Below, in pieces: positions 29,086-63,856 of a stretch of DNA of 64,000 nucleotides. The position numbers and the translations under genes are program-made. The stretch spans positions 1 to 64,000 of the forward strand of contig JAUQQP010000035.1 of the NCBI GenBank assembly GCA_030549855.1, written 5' to 3'. The notes under the pieces were generated by a model. That model was not told the origin of the DNA. It made no database searches and worked only from the letters and a program-made list of their open reading frames with translations. The stretch comes from Cyanobacteriota bacterium SRBZ.bins.94.201705. Its GTDB lineage: Bacteria > Cyanobacteriota > Cyanobacteriia > Cyanobacteriales > Cyanobacteriaceae. The stretch's first letter is position 1, and each line of letters opens with the position of its first letter.

Positions 29086-29189
29086 ATGCCCTATTTTCTG
29101 CTATTTTTACTTCACAAAAGCCTTTCTCCTGCAGGGGTAGTTTTACAGCAAATCCCTTGTTTATTTACTCCCCATCTTGTTAAAAGATA

Positions 29190-31193
29190 TTCCGCATATC
29201 CCCAGCCATTCCGGAAAAACTGCCGGCAAACAATATCCAATGGGAGGAAAAACCAAGATGGAAATGCTACCAAGACAACCTATTAGCCTGAATAACATTA
29301 GCCTGAATAACAACAGTCAGAAAAAATCCACTACCCTGTGGCATACCCCACAAATACCCCGCATTTTTTTAGGCTGGAAATCGCTATAGTTGTGAACTAT
29401 ACCATAAAGGCCTTTCTTTGCCAAGGGAAATGACACTAGTTGCCCTATAATGGCTTTATCCAAGGCTAGTAGGATAACTTTTGCCATGAAAGCCTTTGTC
29501 TAGGGGAATAACTAGTTGCTGTATGGCAGCATTATCCGGGATAAGTGATATGGTTTTTGCTGGTGTCGGGGGAAAACCAAAAGGGAAATGCTACAAATAA
29601 GATAGTCTTTTGGCATGGGTGACAATAGCCTGTAAAATTTACCCCATGGGGTATTATCTGTCTGTCCTTGTGAATATTTCTAATTGTAGGCCGAAAATAG
29701 AGGTAGAATAGACTGTACCATGTAGGACAAGGATGAAAATTACCAGTTATTGTCTAACAGTGTTGTCTAACTCCTGTAGGGTATTGTCTTAAAGTGTAGG
29801 AAAAGGCCAAAATAAGTGTTACCATGAACAATAACTGCCAGAAAAGTCCATCTCAGAGGTTGCCGCAATTCTCTCCATTTTTGGAGGCTGGGATAAGGGA
29901 TAATAAAATGGCAACTACCATGTTTAGTTGTACTGCAGTGTAGCTGTAGGATTTTTGCTATAGAAATGACTAATGCCGTTTTAGTGGCATTACCCAGCCA
30001 TAACTAGTCATAGTAGTCGCCAAGTGGGATAAAGACAAACGGGGAATACTGAAAAAACAGTCCAGTGGTATAAATAACAATAATCAGAGAAAGTAAATAC
30101 TCCCTAGGATACACCCAAGGCATACTACGTATTTTCCTCCACTAGAAATAACGAGGTAAACTCCAGATGAATGCCTTTGGCTGGAGGAAAGAATGACCAT
30201 TTGCCACATACTAGCATTATCCAGGAATAGGTGACCATAATTGTAACCAGGGTAGGGAAAAAAGCTAAGACAGAATTGTTGCAAGAAGAATATTCTATTG
30301 GCATAAACAACTAGCCGGAAGAATTCTATTTTCTCTGCTGGCTGTGGCAGTGACGTAACCCTTGCTATAAATGCCTTTACCTAGGGAAATAACTAGTCAC
30401 CGTATAGTAGTCTTATCCAGCAAGAGGTGATTATGACGATTAGCAGTTTGAAGGGAAAAGCAAAAGGGGAATGCCACAAAGATATTCTGTTGGCATGAAT
30501 GACAATAGCCTGTACAATCTATACCATGGGGTGTTGTCTTTCCCTGTGAATATTTCTAACTGTAGGCCGAAAATAGAGGGAGAGTAAACTGTACCATGTA
30601 AGGCGAGGATGAAAATTACCAGTTACTGTCTAAAGGTGTTGTCTAACTGTAGAGGATTATATTCGTTGCCATTGTCGGGGGAGGGGTAAAAGGAATGTTG
30701 CCATGAATAACAACAGCCAGGAAAATCCATCGGCGGCGCTGTGGCAATTTACCTCATTTTTGTAAGCTAAGAATTGGGACAAAATATACTCTGCCATTTT
30801 ATGAGGCGTATTGCAATATGCCCCTGTGGCAGCTTTCTCCAGGCTGATGTAAAACCAAAGGGAAGGTCTTGCTGAAAAAACAATCTACTGGTATAAGTGA
30901 GAATAGCCGACAACAATCCACATTCCCCAAGTCCTTAGAAGTGCTTCTTATTTTTGTAGGCTGGAAGTAAGTAGCGATGGGATAAACTATACCATGAGAG
31001 AAAAAATAACTGGTTGCCCTATAGTAACCCTAAGGGGGATTATAGTCGTAACCAGTGGGGGGAAAACCAAAACGGAAATGTTGCCAAAAAGATACTCTAT
31101 TAGCATAAACAACAATAGCCGGAAGAATCCTATTTCCCGCCGCCTGTGGCGATGGGATAAACCTTACCATAAAAGCCTTTGCCGGGGGGATAA
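29190..31193. repeat. Diverged tandem-repeat array downstream of the anion permease gene (array 1)
   Basis: About 2 kb contains roughly nine diverged copies of a unit of about 180-225 bases. Recognisable unit starts (variants of ATAACTAGTTGCC) lie at 29430, 29508, 29966, 30192, 30389, 31006 and 31190. The last two are 184 bases apart and very similar. Each full copy continues with a GTGATT..GTAACCAG, AAAACCAAAACGGAAATG and TTGGCATAAACAACAATAGCC series. The rightmost copy runs into the coding 3' end of the minus-strand permease (31194-31290), so the unit appears to derive from that gene's end plus downstream DNA. No reading frame is conserved. A larger period of about 880 bases relates 29621-29990 to 30501-30870. 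Confidence 0.75.
29282..29311. repeat. Exact 15-bp tandem duplication
   Basis: ATTAGCCTGAATAAC is present twice in tandem without change, inside the leftmost part of array 1. It is a recent slippage event in otherwise diverged repeats. Confidence 0.8.
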
Positions 31194-32423
31194 CTAGTTG
31201 CCGTATAGTAACTCTATCCAGAAGTAGGTGATTGTAGTCGTCACCAGAGTGAGGGGGAAACCAAAACGGAAATGTTGCCAGAAAGATAGTATATACCCCC
31301 TAGTTTTGGCACTTTCTGCCATAATCAAATTAGCCACTGAACCAAACAAGGTAAAATTTCCTGCTAAGGTGGCACTACTGGCTAAGAGTAGCCATTTCTC
31401 TGAAGACTTCTCCCCCATTATTCCTTGTAATAATAAAACTGCTGGTACATTAGAAATGAGATTAGATAAACCAACCGTTGCCAATACCAGATTTACGTTA
31501 TTATTCAGCCAATCCTCCATAAAACCAAAAATATTCAAAGAACGCACACAGTGGGTTAGAATAAATAGACCAGAAAACATCACTAATAGAGGCCAATCGA
31601 TTTGTTTAAACACTTTCTCTGGTTTTAATCGTCGAGTAATTAACAAGATTGTAGCGCCTAAAAAAGCAACTTCTGTCATGGGTAACCCCACCACAAAACC
31701 TGCTAAGGTTGCGGCAGTTATTAGTAGTGTTTTCCTCAAAAGTGGCAAGTAGATACCATATTTCCATTTTCCCTCCCTTTTGGTTAACAAAATCTTTCCG
31801 CTTCTCACCTCTGGATACAACCACCACAACAAACCAATTTGTGTCAGCAAGCCAGCTATAGCCGGGAAAATTAGGGCTTTTGTAAATTGTAAATAACCTA
31901 TTCCCGACAATGACCCTACTAAAATATTCTGAGGATTACCATTAATTGTAGCTAACGAGCCTATATTTGTCGCCCCGGCAATCGCCAAAAGATAGGGGAT
32001 AGGATTTATCTGTAAACTGGCAGTCAATTCCAAAACAAGAGGAGTGGTTATGGACACCAGGGTGTCATTTAAAAATAAGGCAGATAGAAATCCCGTTGTC
32101 AATGTTAGCAACACTATTAAACGGAAAGGTGTTAGAATAAGTCGTTGTAAGTACCATATACATAGATTGAAAAATCCACTATAATTTAGATTGCCATTAA
32201 TTATCATCATACTTAACAAAAAAATGATAGTATTCTCGTCAATTGCCTCCCACGCCTCCGATAAACTCAAACCTCCTAAACTGACTAACAAACCAGTAGT
32301 AATTAAAGCGATTGTTGCCCGATTAACCCGAAATCCCGGTATATATCCTAAAGCTAGGGTTAAATAACTTCCAATGATAACCAATACCTTGAAACCAAAA
32401 AGAATATCCTGCCAGTATTTCAT
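31194..32423 (-). CDS. SLC13/ArsB-like anion permease
   Basis: This 409-residue integral membrane protein of the ion-transporter superfamily (ArsB/NhaD/SLC13-like) has about 10-11 predicted helices. TTGLLVSLGGLSLSEAWEAI near residue 45, FLLSMMIINGNL, ATNIGSLATINGNPQNILVG (about 150-170) and the second-half repeat VGLSNLISNVPAVLLL (about 315-330) are the paired re-entrant segments of the family. The substrate (arsenite, sulfate or another anion) is not evident. The final 30 codons (FWQHFRFGFPLTLVTTTI...) are a normal family C-terminus, yet their DNA matches the repeat unit that fills the gap downstream. Confidence 0.82.
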   Translation of the reverse strand: MKYWQDILFGFKVLVIIGSYLTLALGYIPGFRVNRATIALITTGLLVSLGGLSLSEAWEAIDENTIIFLLSMMIINGNLNYSGFFNLCIWYLQRLILTPFRLIVLLTLTTGFLSALFLNDTLVSITTPLVLELTASLQINPIPYLLAIAGATNIGSLATINGNPQNILVGSLSGIGYLQFTKALIFPAIAGLLTQIGLLWWLYPEVRSGKILLTKREGKWKYGIYLPLLRKTLLITAATLAGFVVGLPMTEVAFLGATILLITRRLKPEKVFKQIDWPLLVMFSGLFILTHCVRSLNIFGFMEDWLNNNVNLVLATVGLSNLISNVPAVLLLQGIMGEKSSEKWLLLASSATLAGNFTLFGSVANLIMAESAKTRGYILSFWQHFRFGFPLTLVTTTITYFWIELLYGN

Positions 32424-35751: not shown

Positions 35752-35859
35752 GACTACCACTGCCTTGTATCTTTTGGCTTTTGTGTTAGTCTATTTTAGA
35801 CCAATACACAGTAACCGAGTCACAAAAATTGCCAAAATAATGGGTTTATACCGATGATT

Positions 35860-37660
35860 TTACACTAATAATGCCTCCCACCGATGCACCATGACAACTT
35901 CCCCCATAACAGACAATACCCCCCTTGTAAATGCTTTTGGTGTAACGGAAAATATATCTCTTGTTGGAAACTAAAATAGGGGTTGCCAAAAAAACATACC
36001 ATCCCCGTAGAGACTAAGCAGGATATTTCCATAAAAAATAATACATCCCTTGTGGGAGGCATTCATAAACCCTCCTGGCAAAGACTATACATCCCCTCCC
36101 CCGGGATAGATGTTTCCAGGCAAGACTATAAACCTCCAACTAGAAACTTTAATAAGCATGGGTTTGTTGTTGGGGAATAAACCTCTTGGTTAAGAATCAC
36201 ATGAACACATCTAAAATAGAAGATATGCTACCCAGTCAGTCATTAGACAAATACCTCCCCCGAAGACGATACCTGCCTTAGTGTAGTAACCCCCTAGACA
36301 AACATGCCCATTATAGCCCATAAAACTTTTAGTCAACAATCAGATGAATCTCTCTGGAAAAGACTATACCTCCAGTCAAGACTAAATTCCTTCTATAGAC
36401 TACAAACCCCAGGGTTAACACTAAGACATATTATTCCACAGGGGAAGACAAATCTCCTAGTCTACAATTACATAAACTCTATGCCATTAGAAGGCACATC
36501 CCTAGATAAAGAGTAACAGACATAAGCCACCCTTCAAGACTTGTATAAACACCCCCTCCCCATTCCTCTACCTACACCCCCACACCCTTGCCTCAAACCA
36601 TAGTTTTAACCCCAAGACATTTATCCCCACAGACTACTCCCTTTCAGTTAACAGCTGGATAGATACCAGCCTACTATGAGAAGGATGATTCTTATACTAG
36701 ACATTCAGATAAACATTTGCCTCGGGGATAATGATTACCCTGGGTGACTCCAATACTAACTTTTCTGACTGACTCTGTGTCTTCCCTAGTCACAGCTAAG
36801 ATAAGTGTCTCTATAAATGACAATCTCCCTCCCTGGAAAAAATGCCTCCACATAAAAAGACAATACAATTTGCCGCCGCCGCTGGAGAAGACACCTCCTA
36901 GTCAGATTTAACCAAAACACTTTTGCCGTTAGAAAACAAAATTCCTGGTAAGCAAGATAAGAGTCTGTATAACTACAGTATTAAAAATGCCTACAAAGGA
37001 GGGAGTAAACAAGACTAGGATAAACAAGTCTACAACAGACGATACACTCTCAGGTTTTCCTTAGAAAAAACACCCCCATTCCCCTCCTTACCTCTTGGTT
37101 AACACAAACACACCTCAAACAGACAAACCACCCCCCGTCGACTAAGATAAAAACCCTCATGAGGAAAACAACCTCTCTAATTGCAGACTGGCAACAACAA
37201 GAGTATGCCATAAGATAAATTCCTAATTCCCACCTCAGATATATGCCTCTACCTCAGACTTACCCCCCCAACCTAAAACTAACTGATATGCTAACCTAAA
37301 ACTAACTGATACGAATACCTCCAGGCAATAGTATAAACCCTACAGTTGGCACTAAGAGAGGCGAATACATGATAGTAAAAGACAAACCCCCGCCAATCAC
37401 TGTCAGACAAACACCAACCAAGGTATATCACCTTTTCGTCGGTTTGAGAGAGTAGTCCCATTATACAATAAAACCCCTGGCTACCAATCAGATGTGCCCC
37501 CACAAAAGACTATAAATCCCCCCGTAACTAGGAGTATAAATCTCCCCCATAGAGACAACAAAGATAGAGGTTTAAAATCATAAACCCCTCGATGACAAGA
37601 AAGTGGATACCACCACCTGGGGGGATAGGCTTATCCCTCCCCTTGCCTCCAACCGCATTC
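35860..37660. repeat. Diverged short tandem-repeat array downstream of the GH57 gene (array 2)
   Basis: These 1.8 kb of non-coding DNA are strongly A+C-rich on the plus strand and built from variants of a unit of about 40 bases centred on AAGACTATAAACCCC. Clear copies lie near 36082, 36122, 36356, 36380, 37010 and 37505. Two longer copies (about 36341-36375 and 37480-37517) share the string CAATCAGATG followed by AAAAGACTATA. The last codons of the minus-strand GH57 gene read AAAGGACGATAAACCC on this strand, the closest non-array match. No ORF of known family occurs here. Frames of 60-70 codons are scattered and unconserved. Confidence 0.65.
37270..37315. repeat. 23-bp tandem duplication inside array 2
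   Basis: Two consecutive copies beginning AACCTAAAACTAACTGATA differ only near their ends (TG versus CG). It shows recent duplication inside an otherwise eroded array. Confidence 0.8.
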
Positions 37661-40756: not shown

Positions 40757-40903
40757 CCTCCGCGGCATCGACCATACGGGCATTTTGCCCTACGCCCCAT
40801 CTGCCCTTTTCCTTACATTTTCTTTTTACATTTGTTAACAAATGCCCCAAAAAGACCCCGGCCCCTGCTACAATGGAACCATCGGACGGCAGGAAATGGT
40901 GAC

Positions 40904-40932
40904 TGCCAGGGCCGACCCTGGGCACTTTTTAT
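40904..40932 (+). terminator. Likely Rho-independent terminator of tolC
   Basis: The stem TGCCAGGG pairs with CCCTGGGCA (one bulged G) around a CCGA tetraloop and is followed by CTTTTTATTT. It lies about 150 bases after the tolC stop. Confidence 0.7.
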
Positions 40933-41100
40933 TTGCAAAATATAAGCGATTATTTACTATTATTATAGGGCATAATTGCTAATAAAATGAGAGGTAATTT
41001 CCGGCATAAAGACCTTTTTATGGAATAAAAGTACCCCCTTCCTGTAACTCTAAACATCGCTTATATCTAAAAATATTTTCAATTATTTTTTGTTACGGCT

Positions 41101-41140
41101 CCGCTAGCGGTATATTGCAAATCATGTTAGTTGCAATATA
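41101..41140. repeat. Palindrome plus 10-bp inverted repeat
   Basis: CCGCTAGCGG (41101-41110) is a perfect palindrome. It is followed directly by TATATTGCAA (41111-41120), a 10-base spacer and TTGCAATATA (41131-41140), a perfect inverted repeat. Its purpose is unknown: a protein-binding site, an RNA hairpin or a small mobile-element remnant are all possible. Confidence 0.7.
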
Positions 41141-41358
41141 TAATCATTTACTAAGGCTAAAAGCTTTTATATATCGGAAATTAGCTAGCTATCCTTAGCG
41201 TATTTTATGATATAAATAATCAACAAAAATGTGGGCAGGGACAGCCCTGGTAGTACCTTCGCCTACCGCCCCCCATCCTATGCTAGCACAACGGCCCCAA
41301 AAATAGGGGAAAAAATTAACAAAGGTAAACACACTCTACCACCCCTACACCAAGAAGA

Positions 41359-41439
41359 ACAAGCCAAAGGGGAGAGACAAGCCAAAGGATAGAGACAAGC
41401 CCCATCCCTACTATCCCTACTATCCCTACTATCCCTACC
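41359..41439. repeat. Short tandem repeats at the tyrS 3' end (array 4)
   Basis: About two and a half 18-base units (ACAAGCCAAAGG plus GGAGAG or ATAGAG; 41359-41400) are followed by four tandem copies of the 9-mer ATCCCTACT (41404-41439, the last with C at the end). This run lies six bases before the tyrS stop codon. The tyrS terminal codons read CTAATCCTCCC on this strand, similar to the 9-mer. Confidence 0.85.
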
Positions 41440-41445
41440 AACCTC

Positions 41446-47835: not shown

Positions 47836-48669
47836 CTATGCTATTGTCCTTTTCACGAGGTGTTCTACTGTTAGTTTTTTCTCCTCAACGATAGCAGGCA
47901 AGTCCTGTATTACGAGGGAGCATTTCTTGATGAAGGCATCTGTCCATTTCTCGAACCATTTTAGCTGAAGTGCCGTTGCCGGCGCGGTAAGACTCCCCGG
48001 GAAATGGACTTTGCCTTTTTTATCCATCGAGAAGTTATGTAGCCATTCTACTTCCGGACGTGTTTCTTCAAAGTATTTGGCGGTGATAGTGTTGCCCAGA
48101 TATTTACTTACAATGGCAGCAATGGCTTCAAAATAGATAATAACTTCACCAAGGGTAACCTTAACACCCCCCTCAGGGGTAAGGATGGATACTTTTTTCA
48201 TCCCCAACGATTCTGGGTTTAATCCCCTGTCGAGACGGGTAGTGCCGTCATATTTGGCGTCGCGAAACACTCCACTGCTGAGATAGGCGCCACTGAGGAT
48301 TGCACCGGTTAAGTCGGCTTGAGTAAAATTAGCCTTACTCAAAAAACTACCGGTGAAGTTGGCCTCCTTAGCTATTACCTTATGGCAATTTGCACCGATG
48401 AGGTAGGCTTTGATAAAATAAGCACCGGTGAGGTTGGCACCAGTGAGGTTGGCACCAGTGAGGTTGGCTTCGTTAAAATAACACCTGCTGAGGTTGGCAC
48501 CAGTCAAATCGGCATCCCGTAAGTCGGCATAACTCAAATCTGCGCCTTCCAGGTTGATACCCCTTAACTGGGCCTTCCTCAAGTCTATTCTCCTCAGTTG
48601 TGCCTTGGAGAAGTTTCTTTCCCCTCTGTTGTATCTTTCCTGTATGTCAAAAACGCTGCTAGTTAGCAT
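47836..48669 (-). CDS. Pentapeptide-repeat protein
   Basis: This 277-residue protein has an N-terminal pentapeptide-repeat block of about 18 A(D/N)LXX repeats (residues 20-135), folding as a right-handed quadrilateral helix. The remaining 140 residues are a globular C-terminal domain of unknown type, containing the YFEETRPEVEW segment. Pentapeptide proteins often mimic DNA or scaffold other proteins; the role here is unknown. The repeats are near-identical at the DNA level (48420-48470). Confidence 0.88.
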   Translation of the reverse strand: MLTSSVFDIQERYNRGERNFSKAQLRRIDLRKAQLRGINLEGADLSYADLRDADLTGANLSRCYFNEANLTGANLTGANLTGAYFIKAYLIGANCHKVIAKEANFTGSFLSKANFTQADLTGAILSGAYLSSGVFRDAKYDGTTRLDRGLNPESLGMKKVSILTPEGGVKVTLGEVIIYFEAIAAIVSKYLGNTITAKYFEETRPEVEWLHNFSMDKKGKVHFPGSLTAPATALQLKWFEKWTDAFIKKCSLVIQDLPAIVEEKKLTVEHLVKRTIA

Positions 48670-59916: not shown

Positions 59917-60654
59917 ATGAATTCTTCTGCCTTTCTCTTGGTGTGTCATGGTAGCCGTAGTGGCAATTATAGTTTGCAAGTCAAGAATTTTTGTGCCAGT
60001 TTGCGGAAGGATTTATGCAGTTTGGGTTTTACCTTTCCCCTCTTTGCCACCTATCTGGAATTGGCACAATCCCCCCTATCTGAGAGGATTAAACAACTAG
60101 CAGTCAATTTAGCCACAAATGGGTATGACAAGCTCTATATTCTACCACTATTTTTGTTGTCAGGCTACCATGTAGTCAAGGACATCCCCACAGAAGTAGC
60201 CTTGGCTGCCAAAGATTCCCCCCTTGTGTTGGAAATTATGCCTTCTTTGGGGCAAAACCCAGAGTTAGTCACCCTGTTACGGCAGTTATATGACACAGAG
60301 GGAGACTGTGAGAGGATTCTACTTGCCCATGGTACCAGTTTAGAAGGAGGCAATCAAGAGTTAGAAACCCTTGCCGGTAAGTTGGAAGCCAGACTTATTC
60401 TCTGGGGTGACAACTTTCCAGGTTTATCCTTTTCCCAGGAAGGTAAACCAATTGTAATCCTCCCCTATTTTCTATTCCCAGGTAGAATTATAGAGGACAT
60501 TGTCCAGCAGGTAGGACAGTTAGCCGAAAAACACCCCGGAAAGGTTAAACTACTACCAGTGTTAGGAGAAACCCCCCAACTGGGGAGACTACTAGTAAGA
60601 CAAATAATCCAGCAACTAGGTGTTACATCTCCACCCACACCTCGGGGTTTATGA
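59917..60654 (+). CDS. CbiX/SirB-type sirohydrochlorin chelatase
   Basis: This class II chelatase inserts Fe or Co into sirohydrochlorin for siroheme or cobalamin. It is 245 residues long, with two tandem CbiX-type halves. The metal-binding His residues are in LVCHGSRSGN (about 8-17), SGYHVVKDIP near 85, and LLAHGTSLEGG near 135. Cyanobacteria often use this protein for siroheme, since nitrite and sulfite reductases need it. The C-terminal codons form one arm of the next hairpin. Confidence 0.88.
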   Translation: MNSSAFLLVCHGSRSGNYSLQVKNFCASLRKDLCSLGFTFPLFATYLELAQSPLSERIKQLAVNLATNGYDKLYILPLFLLSGYHVVKDIPTEVALAAKDSPLVLEIMPSLGQNPELVTLLRQLYDTEGDCERILLAHGTSLEGGNQELETLAGKLEARLILWGDNFPGLSFSQEGKPIVILPYFLFPGRIIEDIVQQVGQLAEKHPGKVKLLPVLGETPQLGRLLVRQIIQQLGVTSPPTPRGL

Positions 60655-60675
60655 TTATCTACAACTATAAACCCC
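60644..60675 (+). terminator. Hairpin at the end of the cbiX gene
   Basis: GGGGTTTAT (60644-60652) pairs with ATAAACCCC (60667-60675) across a 14-base loop that contains the stop codon. A C-rich run, not a T-run, follows, so it may be a weak terminator or a 3'-end stabiliser. Confidence 0.5.
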
Positions 60676-63079
60676 CCGGAAGGGATATGCCTTTCCCTTT
60701 TTCCCCACCTTCCCCCGCTTGCAATATTCTCCATATTTGTTGAAAATTTTTTTTACAATTTCCTTATACATCTCCGAGGAAATCGCTTCTATTGCAATTC
60801 ACTCTCATCAGCTTGTTGATAAATAGAATAATGATTATCATTCGTATATATTTGGCCAAGTCCTATCAGATGCCTCTCTGAAAGTATCCCGTGGCGGATA
60901 GAGGAAAATGGATTATCATTCGTATGCGTCTGCTTAACCCCTATTCCAGGATAAACCTCGACAAAGGGCGAGGGACTATTATACATGTTATCACTGGCCA
61001 TCGCTGCTACTGCCCACCAGTAGATTGTCATCCGTCTGTAATTTTTCTCCCGAAACCCCTATCTGAGGCGATAATAAAATGATTATCATTCGTATAAATT
61101 CGTCTAATCCCAAAGGCTTTTGCCACAAGACACCATGACTAGTATCCCAGTGGCGAATATAGGAAAATAACCATTACTACGAATATAGGAAAATAACCAT
61201 TACTACTAGGCATTCATTCACCCTTCCCCTTCTTCCCTCTAGCAGACGACTAGTCATTTCTCCCTAGCGGTAAGCCCTCTATTTGAGAGAATGATTATCA
61301 TTCGTTTATATTCGCCTCACAAATGGGGGGTTGAGTAGCCTTTTCCACTTATTCCCTCCTGTTTTTAGTGGCGAGATAATGACTATCACCACTGTAAATT
61401 CATTTACCACCATTTCCAGATACCCTGGCGAGGGATTATTGTTGTCTCCACCAGCCACCCCAGAGTGTGACAATGGTTGTTAGCCACAGGGTTACCCCTT
61501 TCCCCGGGGTGTCATTTAGATTTTTATTCATCTACGGTTGGCGGCTTTCCCCTCACCAAACTCCTTCCAGAAAGGAATTGGGAGTTTTATACAGGCAAAC
61601 CACCTCTGCTGGGGGATAACCATCGTAGTTAGCATACAATTACTCGTTGGTGGGTAGTCGTGAGATTAGAGATTGCCTTCCAATATAGGGTAATGATTGT
61701 CACTGGTATACCCTCGACTAGTCTCCTTTTGACGAATACAGGAGAATGATTATCATTCGTCTAAAATTAGCTAATCCCCACTACTGGATAACCTCCTGCA
61801 GGTAAGAGACTATTATTCGTATCCCCTTCCCCTCCCATGAGAGTAGACTGGCTATCTCCACAACCCATAGCTTCGGCTACTCCCGTTTATTTCCAGAAAA
61901 CTGCCGACGGTGGCTGAAGGGTTTTTGTTAGTATCCAACTGGTTAGACAATTCTCCCTCCTCAGGGTAGCCACTTTTCCCTGCCGAAAACATACTAGTAG
62001 ACTGTCATTAATCTCCGGCTGTCAGACTAGTCAATTTCTTTACCCCTGACGACTACTTCCCCACCAGCTATCCTACTTCCTCTCCTCCAACAGAGGAAGA
62101 ATTACTAACATCCCATCAACCATCTGCCATCATTCCATGGGATACCTATTCCCACCTGTATTTCCCCCGCTTATTCCCCAGAAGGTTACTTGTTGGGGAT
62201 GAAGTGGTGATTGTCAGCATTTTGAGGGGTAACTGTCTTCCTCTATTCACGGTGATGATTACCATTCGTCTACGATTATCTCGCCAGGAGGAATTGTAGT
62301 TTCCGAAAAAGTTAGTTGTTTTACCTCAGAGAAGTTGTCGTTGGTAGACAGACTAGAAGTTATTTGCCTCCCCTTGGCTAGTATACAAACATGAAGACAA
62401 GACTAGTCCAAAAAAAGATAATAACCATTTTTATGTCACGGTCAACAGAAGGATGCCAATTACTCCTTCAAATAGAATAACTGCCAGTGGTATGCAATCG
62501 GAAAGGTGGCAACTGGGGTGACTAGTATGCCGGCAGTTAATCTTGTCTCCCAGTTAATCTTGTCTCGTGGTAGTCAACTGGTTGCCATAGCTGTAGGGAT
62601 ACAGAGAAATTGGGGTGATGGAGAAACCCAGAGACAAAAACTATCCTCTTCCCACTTCACCCCTTCCGGATAACTTCTGATGGCATACCCTTTGCCGGCA
62701 ACTGGTTGAAGGATACCTTTGCATGGGTTACCTTTGTTACCGGTAGGCGAATGATTATTACTGGCATCACAACTTTGATTACACGCTATGTTGCTAAAAT
62801 CTGTCGACTCCCCGGCGACAATATACGAATGGTTATCATTATTATGTATTTAGCGGCCCCACCACAAGAGGTGATTAGTAGTGGCATCCCTACCAGTCAT
62901 TTTCTCCCCCCACACCCCGAGTGTATATAGTGACTCCATTGTACTGAAATGGGCACACATGTGGCATCCACCCCCACCATAATCCATTTTTTAGCCCAGG
63001 GGGGTATAATAACTATCATTTAATCACATATAACTCCCCCGCCAATCCCCCACCCCCGTCGGGTGAAGACAGGGGATAC
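60655..63079. repeat. Diverged repeat array downstream of rsmE (array 3)
   Basis: This 2.4 kb between the convergent chelatase and rsmE genes holds no coding gene I can support. At least fifteen diverged copies of a motif occur: AATGATTATCATTCGT is exact at 60830, 61078, 61290 and 61745, with variants at 60911, 61376, 61692, 62253, 62750, 62826 and 63009. Copies usually have an AGTGGCGAATATAGGA-like lead-in and a CGTCTAATCCC-like tail. The same order occurs in the 3' coding DNA of rsmE (about 63085-63150 on this strand: CACTGCC, CATAGGGAGG, AAATTATC, CATTGCCGTAAGG, TAATTGCCC). I infer the array descends from that gene end. Confidence 0.7.
61154..61205. repeat. Exact 26-bp tandem duplication inside array 3
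   Basis: A 26-base unit that begins GAATATAGGAAAATAACC and ends ATTACTAC is present twice in tandem without any difference. It demonstrates recent copy-number change in the array. Confidence 0.85.
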
Positions 63080-63856
63080 CTAATTCCCACCACTGCCTTC
63101 CCATAGGGAGGAAATTATCGCCATTGCCGTAAGGGGTGCAGTAATTGCCCTTAAAATCCTTTTACCCAATGATACCACTTTAAAGCCCGATGCTATTGCT
63201 GTTTCTATTTCTTCTGTTGTCCAACCGCCTTCACATCCTGTAGCTACGACTATTTCTGAAGGAGGGTTGGGAGAGGAGAAGTCTCTTTGACAAGTGGAAA
63301 GCAGATGGGGAGAATCCCTCCTGGCACAAGCAATGTATTTTGGTATATTTCTTGTGCTAAACTCTACAAAAATCTCCTTTATGGGTCTGGGTTTGGTTAT
63401 ACTGGGTACGATAAGTCTTTCTGACTGTTCTACTGCTTCTTTTGCTATTTTCCTCCATCTTTGTATTTTATTCTCTCCTGGGTTAAGGAGGGTGCGCTCA
63501 GCCTTTGCTGGTAAGAAACTGGTTGCGCCTAATTCTGTACAAAAACGAATAATATCATCAAAACCGTTACCCTTGGGCAAGGCTACCACAAGAGTAACAC
63601 TGACGGGTAACTCCCTATTTTCTGATAAAGATTCTAGAATTTGAGCCCCATATTCTGTCAAACAAACACGCCAGGCTAAACCTTTACCATCTATTGCTAC
63701 AAAGGACGTCCCATTTTCCAATCTTACCACCCTTCGCAGATAATGCTCCTGTTCTCTATTCAAGACTATAATGTCTTCCCGTATTTGGTGGGAATCCACC
63801 ACCAGCCGAATGTCACTAGTCTTTCTCTTTTCCTCACCGACTACAGGCAACTTCAT
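63080..63856 (-). CDS. rsmE: 16S rRNA m3U1498 methyltransferase
   Basis: This SPOUT-fold enzyme methylates N3 of U1498 in 16S rRNA. It is 258 residues. The N-terminal PUA-like domain (EHYLRRVVRLENGTSFVAIDG near 38) is followed by the SPOUT knot with VATGCEGGWTTEEIE (about 207-221) and SLGKRILRAITAP (about 234-246). The RILRAxTAP form, replacing the RILRTETA of proteobacteria, is what I expect for cyanobacteria. The 3' end of the gene resembles the neighbouring array. Confidence 0.93.
   Translation of the reverse strand: MKLPVVGEEKRKTSDIRLVVDSHQIREDIIVLNREQEHYLRRVVRLENGTSFVAIDGKGLAWRVCLTEYGAQILESLSENRELPVSVTLVVALPKGNGFDDIIRFCTELGATSFLPAKAERTLLNPGENKIQRWRKIAKEAVEQSERLIVPSITKPRPIKEIFVEFSTRNIPKYIACARRDSPHLLSTCQRDFSSPNPPSEIVVATGCEGGWTTEEIETAIASGFKVVSLGKRILRAITAPLTAMAIISSLWEGSGGN

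Follow-up and report, generated by a model that had tools for sequence, protein, structure and literature searches.

The repeat array between cbiX and rsmE

The DNA analyzed here (a single stretch of 64,000 nucleotides, hereafter the window) belongs to the genome under study (G000), which was compared with a sister species of the same genus (G001) and with other relatives. At positions 60655–63079 of the window, the facing genes cbiX (59917–60654, plus strand, PF01903-type) and rsmE (63080–63856, minus strand, PF04452, 84% identity to G001) enclose a convergent gap of 2,425 bp with a GC content of 0.44, a GC skew of −0.15 and no ORF longer than 80 aa. A terminator-like stem, recognized as a consensus match only, is located directly past cbiX (60678–60696, plus strand), and the gap itself contains a degenerate repeat array (A3). 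Similar 12-mer pairs are far more numerous in it than expected (712 vs. 162, z = 29; control coding segments of the same genome, z 1.5–5).

The most conspicuous word of the array is the 16-mer AATGATTATCATTCGT, which has 4 exact copies on the plus strand of the gap and none in shuffled sequences. Allowing up to 2, 3, 4, or 5 mismatches, the number of copies increases to 6, 8, 10, and 13, while 0, 0.01, 0.27, and 1.2, respectively, are expected (means of 200 dinucleotide shuffles). Exact cores were located at 60830–60845, 61078–61093, 61290–61305, and 61745–61760, cores with 2 mismatches at 60908–60923 and 62254–62269, with 3 mismatches at 61692–61707 and 62828–62843 (the latter overlapping a minus-strand match at 62825–62840), and with 4 mismatches at 61805–61820 and 62750–62765, all on the plus strand and at irregular distances from each other (78, 170, 212, 402, 53, 60, 449, 496, and 78 bp). 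The whole unit, approximately (TATAGGA-A)GAATGATTATCATTCGTcTacaTTtgg, is a few tens of bases long. From Tandem Repeats Finder, the gap yielded no more than two very short exact tandems, one of 17 bp × 2 (62534–62566) and one of 26 bp × 2 (CGAATATAGGAAAATAACCATTACTA; 61154–61206, plus strand), the latter being a recent local duplication within A3.

According to the original prediction, this gap holds the third array of its kind in the window, with at least fifteen diverged units of a common wider word order filling 2.4 kb. The array is real, and its same-direction copies stand far above randomized sequence in the very comparison that had been proposed (10 copies at up to 4 mismatches), but its extent was overstated. 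We counted 10–13 copies (up to 4 or 5 mismatches, respectively), less than half of the gap is made up of units, and the DNA between them is mostly other sequence, likewise repetitive. The companion word GTGGCGAATATAGGA, found at 61147 and in weaker versions at 60888 and 61726, does not recur once per unit.

The length of the gap could be taken as a hint of a non-coding RNA gene or a decayed gene, but besides lacking longer ORFs, A3 has no stable fold (z = −0.8), no Rfam match, and promoter-like sites at the level of shuffled sequence, and we consider such a gene extremely improbable. A phage or plasmid origin of A3 was also searched for, with no match.

Gene 3′ ends and other gaps as possible sources of the repeats

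The units of A3 had been proposed to derive from the 3′ coding end of rsmE, in which a parallel order of words was seen. A loose order of similar words does exist, and a 3′-end origin is true of the arsB-derived array described below and of several other gaps, but the resemblance to rsmE is at chance level. The score of eight A3 units against the rsmE 3′ end is matched by 6% of random coding 81-mers and by 17% of 3′ ends taken from other genes. A count of 14-mers likewise did not place A3 among the 3′-end-seeded arrays as regards rsmE (p = 0.23) and gave the better score to the cbiX end (p = 0.04). The sliding similarity profile stays at background level at the rsmE border, with no rise, and the rsmE 3′ end is conserved, ordinary coding sequence in the sister species. 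Far better matches to the unit lie in other gaps, its best relatives being in other intergenic arrays, which the original prediction itself had named as evidence against seeding from rsmE. We therefore rejected rsmE as the source, and the odds that the array nevertheless started there are minimal.

The two other arrays of the window were used for comparison. A1 (29086–31193, minus strand) is made up of diverged copies, pointing the same way, of the last ~100 nt of a minus-strand arsB-like gene, whose 3′ coding end (31194–31290, minus strand) is the seed (79% over 101 nt, E = 6e−19; further copies 70–73%), and here the rise in the sliding similarity profile extends ~100 bp into arsB. The array also includes DNA from downstream of arsB and an ~880-bp higher-order repeat. 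The arsB-like C-terminus is conserved in G005, a relative from another genus of the family, and the gene end is thus older than the A1 copies. G001 has arsB as a pseudogene and lacks A1, with only ~150 bp between arsB and comFB instead of the ~2.1 kb of array present in G000. For A2 (35752–37660, z = 13.6), seeding from the 3′ end of a GH57 gene is borderline (p = 0.07). A single geometry had been claimed for the three arrays; all three gaps are indeed convergent, but a source at the 3′ end of the minus-strand gene applies to A1, is borderline for A2, and does not apply to A3. As a general idea, judged by sequence similarity, 3′-end seeding holds for A1, and among the gaps sampled in the genus 10 of the 67 adjacent 3′ ends were at the floor p value (~0.6 expected) vs. 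3 of the 42 5′ ends. A small-scale 3′-end-seeded repeat was seen on contig C51 (L044:3960–4130), where a 732-aa gene ends in AAAAGGGATAACTAA and this word continues directly downstream in eroded tandem copies.

The A3 unit itself occurs in at least seven further gaps of G000 (on contigs C14, C19, C25, C51, and in three places on C39, near 53.6, 87, and 526 kb), i.e., the family occupies at least eight gaps, and within one gap the units mostly point in the same direction. A block of 867 bp (60820–61686, plus strand) is common to A3 and a convergent gap on C14 (~41.7–42.5 kb), with 81% identity at aligned positions and many indels, and a 109-bp stretch (60734–60842, plus strand) is 79% identical to C3:51082–51189 of the same genome. 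Within the A3/C14 block, conservation is slightly higher at the cores than elsewhere (p ~0.01), in an alignment that is itself biased towards cores.

The core contains AATGATTATCATT, an exact 13-nt palindrome (6-1-6). With a short palindromic core, an extragenic position, many copies per genome, and a preference for gaps between facing genes, the family resembles REP/BIME elements or REPINs, which are spread by RAYT transposases (PMC8049555, PMC2817692). These elements, however, are short and scattered, while the A3 copies form kilobase arrays with diverged flanks, mostly point one way within a gap, and do not occur as hairpin-forming doublets; the palindrome, with its one-base loop, is unable to form a REP hairpin, and the Y1/RAYT transposase (PF01797) is absent from the genome, although it was detected in control genomes. 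Spread by such a transposase is accordingly very unlikely.

Array-rich gaps in the genus and their turnover

Arrays were counted by a fixed rule (≥ 800 bp, repeat ratio ≥ 1.8, z ≥ 6) in sampled stretches of G000 (892 kb), of G001 (665 kb), and of four relatives (~740 kb in total). Gene-free gaps of 1 to 8.5 kb are numerous in the sampled DNA of G000 and G001, and most of them are strongly self-repetitive with a vocabulary of their own. The rule identified ~67 kb of arrays in G000 (~7%), ~28 kb in G001, and three short ones in the four relatives. Arrays are enriched in convergent gaps (17/242 vs. 22/917, odds ratio 3.1, p = 0.001), and long ones are also present in tandem and some divergent gaps, these counts being based on gene calls of a simple script, on contigs some of which were chosen for the A3 unit, and on statistics that ignore kinship. 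No description of degenerate repeats between convergent cyanobacterial genes was found in the open-access literature.

Other repeats were noted along the way. The G000 arrays C14:83899–92398, C25:11549–17943, C4:92648–97741, and C4:98885–102165 are gene-free and degenerate, 3 to 8.5 kb long, several of them strongly strand-skewed and each with its own vocabulary. At positions 40757–41445 of the window, a dispersed element of ~130 bp, possibly a MITE, has counterparts of 63–78% identity in many gaps (C14:135776, C4:159139, C39:48582, and others), and at 48392–48504 a 15-bp coding repeat (GCACCAGTGAGGTTG) lies within a minus-strand ORF that probably encodes a pentapeptide-repeat protein.

The gaps of G000 and G001 were compared in 20 orthologous convergent pairs. 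In G001, the gap between rsmE and cbiX holds an array of 1,782 bp (z = 33) made of unrelated words (AACAGTTGTCTGTT), while the A3 unit is present in other gaps of that genome, from which it follows that the arrays turn over. Together with the absence of A1 in G001, this is the rapid turnover known from satellite-like arrays. Once orientation is matched, the sign of the skew in the rsmE/cbiX gap is equal in both species. A long gap with the same skew sign despite replaced sequence, as well as the enrichment in convergent gaps, would agree with a structural spacer that buffers supercoiling or separates colliding transcription, for which length and composition would matter and sequence would not. 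Many convergent gaps are short, however (median 57 and 32 bp), the sister species lacks A1, and long arrays also occupy tandem and some divergent gaps, and hence this role appears quite unlikely. Loss of mismatch repair was considered as a cause of the arrays and dismissed, as mutS and mutL were found in all genomes checked, and no simple mutator can therefore explain the genus.

The Zur/Fur-type core and the probable making of A3

Exact copies of AATGATTATCATT are also found in promoters of the family. In G000, the palindrome lies 56 bp upstream of hemB-folE (L054:18952, C39:118952), an operon whose third gene is NTPase-like; in G003 and G006 it is placed between znu/azt-type solute-binding and ATPase genes, in G009 upstream of a znu/azt-type solute-binding gene, and in G011 directly before thrS. 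Paralogues of znuABC, hemB, folE, and thrS are Zur targets in cyanobacteria (PMC6103462), which suggests that Zur may bind the promoters bearing AATGATTATCATT. No Zur-type box was present in the promoters of ZnuA-type genes examined in G000, and hemB-folE is thus the only promoter example in this genome, which encodes three FUR proteins, with their genes on contigs C16, C23, and C35. There are 18 exact cores in G000 and 15 in G001 vs. 0–5 in 18 relatives, and only three of the core sites in the sampled DNA lie within called genes, nearly all being in gaps.

The 13-nt core of the A3 repeats thus matches exactly the boxes in promoters of Zur-type target genes within the same taxonomic family, but unlike the Zur/Fur operators described in cyanobacteria (PMC6103462, PMC4005646), it is found in dozens of copies within gaps that separate facing genes, and A3 lies between two 3′ ends and not in the promoter of a target. 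Gaps of this kind served as the negative set in PMC4005646, operator sites being expected to be rare there. Such sites could titrate a Fur-family repressor and tune the zinc or iron response, as a sponge would. The identity with promoter sites, the enrichment of exact cores in the gaps of G000 and G001, and the three FUR proteins agree with this possibility, and DNA sponges work in principle (PMC7686491). Like the synthetic sponges, A3 is an array of operator-like sites parted by unlike spacers, but it is natural and degenerate. Against it, 19 of the 31 sites anchored on the neighboring CGTMTRY word have a core with up to 2 mismatches and the others decay gradually, a graded erosion from 0 mismatches upward that fits a repeat growing old as well as it fits a protected binding site; the conserved TCGT tail lies on one side only, as it would in an ordinary repeat, and most other arrays are made of quite different words with no Zur-type box. 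We consider titration by A3 unlikely.

We regard as probable that A3 is a satellite-like non-coding array, in which an operator-cored unit was duplicated, copied in blocks between gaps, eroded, and passively kept. The unit would have multiplied by local tandem duplication and been copied ectopically from gap to gap as blocks of at most ~870 bp, after which point changes and indels would have worn the copies. Selection would tolerate arrays that push no promoter away from its gene, chiefly those between facing genes, and A3 would thus persist in its convergent gap because a duplication at this place leaves every gene joined to its promoter. Growth of other arrays from gene 3′ ends would be accounted for by this filter too, as a duplication across a 3′ end would leave an intact gene with a truncated tail downstream. 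We infer that duplication and recombination drive the process and that the copies are maintained passively, passive persistence being the simplest account; the unit either arose from a Fur-family operator or happened to include one. Some observations count against a passive satellite: the core doubles as a genuine promoter site in the family, which junk would hardly match by accident; cores are slightly better kept in the block shared with C14, with the alignment leaning on them; and in G000 and G001 alike the rsmE/cbiX gap is occupied by a long array, the sign of its skew being equal.

Satellite DNA of the eukaryotic type is made of diverged units, duplicated in tandem and block-wise, with private vocabularies, fast turnover between sister species, and spread between arrays. 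All these traits are found in the arrays described here, including many diverged unit copies well above chance in A3, which appears to be an unusual, bacterial kind of satellite DNA. The differences are that the arrays lie in a bacterial genome of 2.9 Mb, are intergenic and only 1–8 kb long, and were in some cases seeded from gene 3′ ends.

Bacteria are expected to rid their genomes of non-coding repeats. Despite this expectation, ~7% of the sampled sequence consists of kilobase, gap-specific, satellite-like arrays that differ between sister species. For one of them, A1, a route of birth can be seen directly, with copies of a gene 3′ end growing into the gap between facing genes. In the A3 family, the core is the box of the zinc-regulator type used in this clade, present in dozens of copies at places where a promoter would not be expected. 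There is a small chance that dozens of such Zur/Fur-box units between facing genes, renewed by satellite-like turnover, act as a natural transcription-factor sponge, which would hold a reserve of repressor and set the threshold of the zinc or iron response in the genus.
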